This document shows, one piece after another, positions 12,261 to 63,470 of a stretch of DNA of 64,000 bases. The DNA lies in contig CAMNGC010000003.1 in NCBI GenBank assembly GCA_946537885.1, forward strand, positions 107,040 to 171,039, written 5' to 3'. The translations under genes were made by a program, and so were the position numbers. The notes under the pieces were generated by a model that saw nothing but the letters and a program-made list of their open reading frames with translations, was not told where the DNA came from and made no database searches. Within the stretch, counting starts at the first letter, position 1, and the number at the start of each line of letters is the position of its first letter. Origin of the DNA: an uncultured Clostridia bacterium (GTDB lineage: Bacteria; Bacillota; Clostridia; Saccharofermentanales; Saccharofermentanaceae).

Positions 12261-12377
12261 TTAAGCAAAACCTTAAGCAACATGGTGAAGCTTTATTTGA
12301 AAAACCGCTACTTTTAAGCAAAAGCTTAAGCAACGTGCTTAAGCCTTCATTTAATAACCGCCACTTTTAAGCCCCCA
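12261..12377. repeat. Dispersed TTAAGC-rich intergenic repeat (copy 1)
   Basis: ccttaagcaacatggtgaagctttatttgaaaaaccg...aagcaacgtgcttaagcctt; near-identical in reverse complement at 62649-62745. Confidence 0.85.
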
Positions 12378-25217: not shown

Positions 25218-25268
25218 GCGACAATTTTTCGACATAGTAAACTTTTTACTATGTCGTTTTTCTGTCGC
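25218..25268. repeat. GCGACA/CGACATAGT two-step hairpin (copy A)
   Basis: GCGACA-atttttCGACATAGTAAA-ctt-TTTACTATGTCG-tttttc-TGTCGC, arms interrupted by a symmetric internal loop. Confidence 0.9.
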
Positions 25269-32141: not shown

Positions 32142-32194
32142 GCGACAATGAAACGACAATGGAAAAGGGTAGTTTCATTGTCGTTTTGTTGTCG
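32142..32194. repeat. GCGACA/CGACA two-step hairpin (copy B)
   Basis: GCGACAatgaaaCGACAATG...CATTGTCGttttgtTGTCG. Confidence 0.85.
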
Positions 32195-32224
32195 AATCCC
32201 TAAAAAGTACATCTATAAAGCCAA

Positions 32225-32278
32225 TCGACAAACAAACGACAACGAATGAGGGTGTTTTTATTGTCGTTTCATTGTCGT
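32225..32278. repeat. GCGACA/CGACA two-step hairpin (copy C)
   Basis: CGACAaacaaaCGACAAC...ATTGTCGtttcatTGTCG. Confidence 0.85.
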
Positions 32279-36983: not shown

Positions 36984-37018
36984 GTTAACCCAAGCTGGGT
37001 TAACACCTGAGGTAATCC
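36984..37018. repeat. 35-bp dispersed repeat GTTAACCCAAGCTGGGTTAACACCTGAGGTAATCC (copy 1)
   Basis: Same 35 bp at 41265-41299 (1 difference) and reverse complement at 62755-62789; contains perfect GTTAACCCA-agc-TGGGTTAAC palindrome. Confidence 0.9.
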
Positions 37019-41264: not shown

Positions 41265-41299
41265 GTTAACCCAAGCCGGGTTAACACCTGAGGTAATCC
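41265..41299. repeat. 35-bp dispersed repeat (copy 2)
   Basis: GTTAACCCAAGCCGGGTTAACACCTGAGGTAATCC. Confidence 0.9.
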
Positions 41300-55894: not shown

Positions 55895-55927
55895 GAGAGC
55901 TGTCTCGATGAGGCGGCTCTTTTTTTG
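55895..55927 (+). terminator. hup intrinsic terminator
   Basis: GAGAGC-tgtCTCgatGAGgc-GGCTCTTTTTTT. Confidence 0.8.
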
Positions 55928-55929
55928 GC

Positions 55930-56176
55930 TCTTCACGGAAAGCTTGGGAGGAAGGTGCTCGATGCCTGACGCTCTATATCATTCCCGCGCAATAAATCCT
56001 AAGCTTCCTCGGTAATGCTTTTGTTGGCATTCCTCATTTTTGGCATTACTCTTGCCGCTTTTTTGTAATGCTATTTTCGAGATTACAAAAAATAGCATTA
56101 CCCGATGCCGCAGGGCCGGCTTTTTCGATCAGCAATCTCCTATACCATGTGAGAGATCACAAGCTTTCCGTGAAGA
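55930..56176. repeat. Small repeat block bounded by inverted TCTTCACGGAAAGCTTG / CAAGCTTTCCGTGAAGA with internal GTAATGC hairpins
   Basis: IR at 55930-55946 and 56160-56176; hairpins GTAATGC...GCATTAC at 56012-56049 and GTAATGCTATTTT...AAAATAGCATTAC at 56065-56101. Confidence 0.8.
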
Positions 56177-56194
56177 AGCTTTTTTGCTCAAGAT

Positions 56195-62194: not shown

Positions 62195-62648
62195 TTTTCC
62201 GCACAAAAAAACAGCCCGCTTACACGGCCTGCTTCTTATTCCATGATCAATACTTCGGGCAAAAGTATTTGTGAGAGTAACAAAAATAGTAAGAATTACT
62301 CACGCTTAAATATTATCGATTTAAGCCCTTGTAAACAATAAAAAAACTCTTGTTATTACGCCCAAAAAATATAAGGGTTTATTTATCGTTTTATAGTTAA
62401 GTTCTTGCTTTATATGTGGAAAATGTCCAAAAGAAATCCTGTCATATATGCGAATTGATCAAACAGACTGCTATAAAGCACTCTTCAGATACTCAGCAGC
62501 ATATCCGTCTAAAACAAGTATCTCTCTGCCGGATGAATCTTCGTCGATATTCGGTTCATACTTATGGATCTGAAACTCTACACTATTATGTCTGACTTTC
62601 TCCGCATTTTTATGGTTCTTCACGGAAAGCTTGGGGTATAGCGTGAAT

Positions 62649-62745
62649 GCTTTAAGCAAAGGCTTAAGCACGTTGCTTAAGGTTCTGCTTAAAACAGCCG
62701 GCTTTTCACACAAAGCTTCACCATGTTGCTTAAGGATCTGCTTAA
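62649..62745. repeat. Dispersed TTAAGC-rich repeat, reverse orientation
   Basis: Reverse complement closely matches 12261-12377. Confidence 0.85.
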
Positions 62746-62754
62746 ATTGTTCCC

Positions 62755-62789
62755 GGATTACCTCTGGTGTTAACCCAGCTTGGATTAAC
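62755..62789. repeat. 35-bp dispersed repeat (copy 3, reverse complement)
   Basis: GGATTACCTCTGGTGTTAACCCAGCTTGGATTAAC. Confidence 0.9.
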
Positions 62790-62800
62790 TGCAGCAAATG

Positions 62801-63122
62801 ACCACAGAGATCCTAAAAAGCTGAATCTCTGTGGTAAGGGCATTTTTATCATTACCACAGAAATGTCAGATTTCTCATTTTCTGTGGTTATTTTGAAGGA
62901 TCAACCTAAGAATCATGACCACAGAGATTACTAAAACCGGATTTTCTGTGGTCGGAATGGGGTGATCATGACCACAGAAAAGTCGGATTCTCCATACTCT
63001 GTGGTTATTTTGAAGGATCAACCCGGGAATCATGACCACAGAGATCTCAAAAAACTGGATTTCTGTGGTAATGGCTAGTTTATCACGACCACAGAAATCA
63101 CAAAAAACGCATTTTCTGTGGT
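62801..63122. repeat. Array of six 35-bp ACCACAGA...TCTGTGGT hairpins (117-bp higher-order period)
   Basis: Units at 62801, 62854, 62918, 62971, 63035, 63088, each exactly 35 bp, with spacers 18/29/18/29/18. Confidence 0.95.
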
Positions 63123-63130
63123 CAATACGC

Positions 63131-63292
63131 AGGGAAGTCCTCCGGGAAATGCGGGCAATTTTCCCGGAACTGTTCCCTATACGCAGGGAAGTCTTCCGGG
63201 AAATGTGGGTAATTTTCCCGGAACTGTTCCCTATACACAGGGAAGTCTTCTGGGAAATGTGGGCAGTTTTCCCGGAACTGTTCCCTATACGC
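63131..63292. repeat. Three 54-bp tandem repeats with nested palindromes
   Basis: AGGGAAgtcytCYGGGAAAtgygggyaatTTTCCCGGaactgTTCCCT starting at 63131, 63185, 63239. Confidence 0.93.
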
Positions 63293-63470
63293 GGTCAATG
63301 TGCTTCGGTACATCTTTCGAGACGGCACCAAGAGTCCAAAAACTCACATCAGCCAAATCTGTCAGGGAGAATCCCAAGCTTTCCGTGAAGAACCACCAAA
63401 GATCAACATAAACCAACCCCTCCCGCAAACTTGCGGAAGGGGCTGATCAAATAAACTATGATTTAACCTA

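Follow-up and report, generated by a model that had tools for sequence, protein, structure and literature searches.

Six hairpins of 35 bp each follow one another at regular intervals in the window, the 64,000-nucleotide stretch of DNA from an uncultured Clostridia bacterium that was analysed here. What kind of array is this, and is it the pairing of the stems or the sequence of the arms that is maintained? The preliminary description had placed the units in an alternating 53/64-bp rhythm, and its coordinates and steps were reproduced exactly: the units start at 62801, 62854, 62918, 62971, 63035 and 63088, and the steps of 53, 64, 53, 64 and 53 bp make up a 117-bp repeat of two hairpins. A strict hairpin pattern matched the window four times, as compared to 0.00 matches expected from shuffles. 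As RNA, each unit folded better than nearly all of its shuffles (z -2.9 to -6.5, -11 to -18 kcal/mol). The genes adjoining the array code for a phosphoesterase and a glycogen phosphorylase.

The array shares with CRISPR arrays a superficial periodicity of palindromic units, and the earlier judgement that the likeness goes no further was correct. Conserved repeats with unique spacers are not present; here the spacers are similar between copies and the unit centres vary, and it is the arms, not whole repeats, that are conserved. A coding function of the array was considered and rejected: the ORFs across it are short, and 53 and 64 are not multiples of three. The Pfam match of a 118-aa ORF was weak, under the cut-off, and judged to be due to chance. 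Searches for a phage, plasmid or viral origin gave no match.

The element around the array and its ISL3-type ends

The six hairpins form the inner part of a 781-bp non-coding element, 62614-63394, with terminal inverted repeats (TIRs) of the sequence GGTTCTTCACGGAAAGCTTGGGA on either side. A repeat search returned these ends as an inverted repeat of 28 bp with 93% complementarity (62608-62635 / 63373-63400). The features of this element, and a second TIR-bounded element in the window, are the following:

62614..62636, plus strand: left terminal inverted repeat GGTTCTTCACGGAAAGCTTGGGG; core found 39 times in the own genome
62659..62746, plus strand: GCTTAAG module, two 35-bp copies at a 53-bp step; dispersed elsewhere in the genome
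62766..62789, minus strand: GTTAACCCAAGCTGGGTTAAC palindrome module; also at window positions 36984 and 41265
62801..62835, plus strand: hairpin unit 1, ACCACAGA arms
62854..62888, plus strand: hairpin unit 2
62918..62952, plus strand: hairpin unit 3, G-U at the variable stem position
62971..63005, plus strand: hairpin unit 4, A-C mismatch at the variable stem position
63035..63069, plus strand: hairpin unit 5, G-U at the variable stem position
63088..63122, plus strand: hairpin unit 6
63131..63286, plus strand: second tandem hairpin array, three 48-bp units AGGGAA..TTCCCT at a 54-bp step
63291..63371: right-end module TCAATGTGCTTCGGTACATCTTTCGAGACGG..., common to sister elements
63372..63394, minus strand: right terminal inverted repeat TCCCAAGCTTTCCGTGAAGAACC, inverted-repeat pair with the left one
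55927..56179: second TIR-bounded element with a TAATGC..GCATTA hairpin module

No transposase ORF lies within the 781-bp element. The preliminary description saw no transposase or integrase next to the array, which is correct to the letter but misleads, since ISL3-type TIRs enclose the array. A target site duplication (TSD) is not recognisable at the window copy (1/8 positions agree), hence the copy may be an old one or have undergone rearrangement or recombination. On the minus strand, a short ORF fragment (62471-62613) without a Pfam match runs from unique DNA into the element; possibly it is the tail of a gene broken by the insertion. The AGGGAA..TTCCCT array has two further copies on contig C8.

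The TIR core CTTCACGGAAAGCTTGGGA matched the window four times, at the ends of the 62614-63394 element and of the 55927-56179 element, and the own draft genome 39 times at up to 3 mismatches (0 matches with the reversed control pattern). Full and partial sister copies were found on many contigs of this genome by element searches. The 55927-56179 element is inserted in the T-rich terminator tail after an HU-like gene, where the flank match is only a T-tract.

These ends recur in a relative. Both TIRs of the window element, the right one in inverted form, match the left end of a complete 1455-bp ISL3 insertion sequence (IS) that has the 8-bp TSD TTAAAATT (L130, contig C161 of G074). A PF01610 match lies inside this IS, and a copy of the IS in G036 codes for a transposase of 450 aa with matches to DDE_Tnp_ISL3 and HTH_Tnp_ISL3 (PF01610, PF13542). 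In the own genome, the first 107 bp of the IS stand at a contig edge (C18:36806). A complete PF01610 transposase gene was not found in the own draft (87.6% complete), as might be the case if the assembly broke at IS present in multiple copies.

Perfect 8-bp TSDs surround a hairpin-bearing element on the own contig C17 (TTATTTTT), an element on the own contig C25 that is nested in another element (CAAAATGA), and elements of the relatives G021 (GATTTAAT), G031 (TAAATATG) and G044 (TTTTTTGA). The nested insertion on C25 (L174, 115-473) is a MITE with a perfect TSD inside another TIR element. In one element of G021 (L052), a tandem AATTCCGCAA..TTGCGGAATT array stands between some 90 bp from the left end of the IS and the right end of the IS. 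The elements have in common with ISL3-family IS and their MITEs the TIR start GG(T/C)TCTTCACG, the 8-bp TSD and A/T-rich targets; in contrast to ISL3-family IS, they have no transposase gene and their interior is made of tandem hairpin arrays. In the literature searched, we found no paper on ISL3 MITEs that carry such arrays.

Array families and their mosaic

A genome-wide search for the array unit, as the preliminary description had proposed, found sister arrays at multiple loci. The ACCACAGA family is present in the window and on C13, C18, C6 and C31, and the elements on C3, C13, C18 and C31 carry 6, 5, 2 and 1 ACCACAGA units, respectively, between shared ends. Other hairpin modules inside these ends, in a reading of the own genome that covers the stretches around search matches, are GTCAACAGA, TAATGC, TACCAACTGA, GGGAA, GCTTAAG and GTTAACCC. 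On C6 and at C3:74583, a unit is split by an array of a different family. Arrays outside any TIR, including some GTCAACAGA arrays, were found on C2, at C3:62729 and on C27; thus the MITE ends are not needed for an array to persist.

Relatives have the same TIRs with other arrays. The strict detector found CTTGACTGAAA in G005, AATTCCGCAA, AATTCCCG and ACTTCTCC in G021, and GGGACTTT in G016; arrays inside TIRs of G044, G031, G007 and Firm_16 were found by tandem-repeat search or by eye. All 6 arrays that this detector returned at the relatives' loci were on the inner side of TIRs (30.8 kb); the other 98.7 kb of these loci had none.

Some further repeats were observed. GCTTAAG and GTTAACCC modules also stand alone, with no TIRs, at 12261-12372, 36984-37007 and 41265-41288 of the window, in each case between convergent genes. 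A hairpin pair with AAACGACA arms at an 83-bp step (window 32151-32269) is related to CGACATAGTAAA hairpins at 25229 and 56206 and beside TIR elements on C1 and C9; perhaps these hairpins are a further dispersed family. An AC-N-GA core recurs in several arm families (CCACAGA, CAACAGA, CAACTGA, TTGACTGA, TAGACCGA), which is a lead only. Unrelated to the element is a strongly folded 155-bp tandem repeat of 2.7 identical copies (L180, contig C11, 961-1376).

TIRs, sister copies with TSDs, ends common with a real ISL3 IS and a mosaic of arrays are thus the observed traits of these elements. Very probably, the window array belongs to a composite MITE that resembles BOX, is of ISL3 type and is non-autonomous. 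With its ISL3-type TIRs, such an element would be movable in trans by an ISL3-family transposase, with an 8-bp target duplication; the short dyad-symmetric units of the interior would multiply as tandem arrays and be swapped between elements. We infer that the window copy was moved by this transposase.

The closest known system is BOX of Streptococcus pneumoniae (boxA-boxBn-boxC; PMC3049150), the likeness being one of working and not of compared sequence. BOX, too, has conserved ends with TIRs resembling a resident IS, TSDs and MITE properties (PMC3049150), and its end modules stand around a variable number of tandem internal modules. However, the IS here is of the ISL3 family whereas that of BOX is ISSpn2. 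Several unrelated array families, mixed and nested, occur here in one genome; the array sequences differ in every species examined; and the units are individually palindromic, with invariant arms and steps near whole helical turns.

The two systems are also alike in their enrichment between convergent genes, a bias described for the pneumococcal elements (PMC3049150). Here 17 of 37 loci lie between convergent genes and one of 37 between divergent genes, whereas each of the two arrangements makes up 11/58 gene pairs of the window (p=0.006 for convergent and 0.025 for divergent genes); without the window loci, the values are p=0.08 (convergent) and 0.05 (divergent).

Arms, centres and steps

The preliminary description had taken the arm changes as a sign of selection on stem pairing, with a compensated arm in unit 1 and with G-U pairing in units 3 and 5. 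The two G-U pairs are present at the variable stem position. However, at the position said to be compensated unit 4 has an A-C mismatch, and over 18 ACCACAGA units the combinations A-T, G-T, A-C and G-C occur 5, 4, 4 and 5 times (Fisher p=1), which means that A/G on the left and T/C on the right assort independently. Compensatory changes among many copies, which the same description had named as the support for a structural role, were looked for in these 18 and in 51 GTCAACAGA units and were rejected. As the arm substitutions are not compensatory, selection on structure fails by that description's own measure. The covariation of paired positions that marks a structured RNA family is likewise absent, and the GTCAACAGA arms are almost invariant.

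The arms themselves hardly change. In the ACCACAGA family (16 units), the pairwise difference is 0.00 in the outer arms and 0.49 in the centres; in the GTCAACAGA family (51 units, 12 loci), it is 0.008/0.023 in the arms and 0.29 in the centres, where the units of both families were collected by arm similarity (up to 3 mismatches in 10), so that strongly diverged arms are missed, although most arms changing at the rate of the centres would still be caught. Nearly fixed next to diverging centres, the arms behave like a recognised sequence.

The start-to-start steps of 17 array families (18 family-level steps) cluster at 52-55, 60-64 and 72-73 bp. At a period of 10.5 bp, their mean resultant length is 0.75 with a phase near zero (p=0.007 with distinct values only), but this helical phasing is suggestive only because the families are not fully independent and a period of 10.0 fits equally well.

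Possible roles of the array

Taken together, arm invariance and steps near whole helical turns point to putative sequence-specific dyad sites and not to selection on RNA pairing. A possible interpretation, which we put forward tentatively, is that some DNA-binding protein reads the sequence of the arms and that the unit is an inverted pair of 8-10-bp half-sites. Such pairs would repeat at about whole helical turns. Yet at least six different arm sequences occur in one genome, which makes a single recognising protein hard to imagine.

It is also quite conceivable, if short of probable, that the arrays are a selfish satellite. The palindromic units would then expand by slippage and template switching during replication and hitch-hike in MITEs, and arms would be kept only since units with intact arms amplify, with no host function and no binding protein. 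The species-specific sequences agree with this: the GTCAACAGA..TCTGTTGAC family has 50 exact units, spread over roughly a dozen loci, in the own genome and is absent from 84 congeners. So do the 117-bp and two-unit higher-order duplications, and the location between convergent genes is that of parasitic repeats. However, conservation of the arms exceeds that of the centres about 19-fold over 12 loci, and the centres are hardly more similar within a locus than between loci (5.15 and 5.92 differences of 20), whereas entire units should become alike if recent slippage were the only process at work. Nor does the satellite account for step lengths close to whole helical turns.

Structured RNA arrays at the 3' ends of genes, acting like REP/BIME as bidirectional terminators, mRNA stabilisers or protein sponges, are rather unlikely. 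The good folding of each unit and the many loci between convergent genes would agree with such a function, but the variable stem position shows no covariation, no T-run follows the stems, an Rfam search over 55.8-63.5 kb gave no match at E up to 1, and helical phasing is not expected of RNA. The array may serve as dyad sites for a protein or be a selfish satellite, and an RNA role is less likely.

Spreading of REPIN/REP-type palindromes by a Y1 tyrosine transposase (RAYT) is very improbable. REP, BIME and REPIN are similarly short palindromes in intergenic tandem mosaics, dispersed at gene ends, and one family here starts with CGTC like the CGTC-tagged REPs (PMC3733652); however, this CGTC lies within the stem and is not an unpaired tag, no tag tetranucleotide stands outside the stem, the loops are long, the own draft (87.6% complete) has no Y1_Tnp gene, and TIRs with 8-bp TSDs are of the DDE type. 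An assembly artefact at a single locus, which the preliminary description had considered, is scarcely credible even for a draft metagenome-assembled genome in 36 contigs and 87.6% complete, since sister arrays with differing unit numbers and unique flanks exist at many loci and analogous arrays in independent assemblies.

Returning to the composite MITE with dyad sites, near-invariant arms beside fast-changing centres lead to a testable prediction, namely that these cells have a protein that binds the arms. A wider generalisation, which we regard as speculative and improbable, is that composite ISL3 MITEs with helically phased arrays of dyad sites occur throughout the genus, the arm sequence being replaced between species and families and the architecture (8-10-bp half-sites, units of about 35-57 bp, steps of about 5, 6 or 7 helical turns) being kept. 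If true, this would suggest that the arrays and a DNA-binding protein are engaged in a partnership or a conflict that evolves fast. The BOX plan has been described in streptococci; an unrelated lineage with another IS family has reached the same plan, apparently repeatedly. By their new array sequences in each species, these bacteria offer many independent replicates for the question why small mobile elements gain tandem arrays of palindromes.
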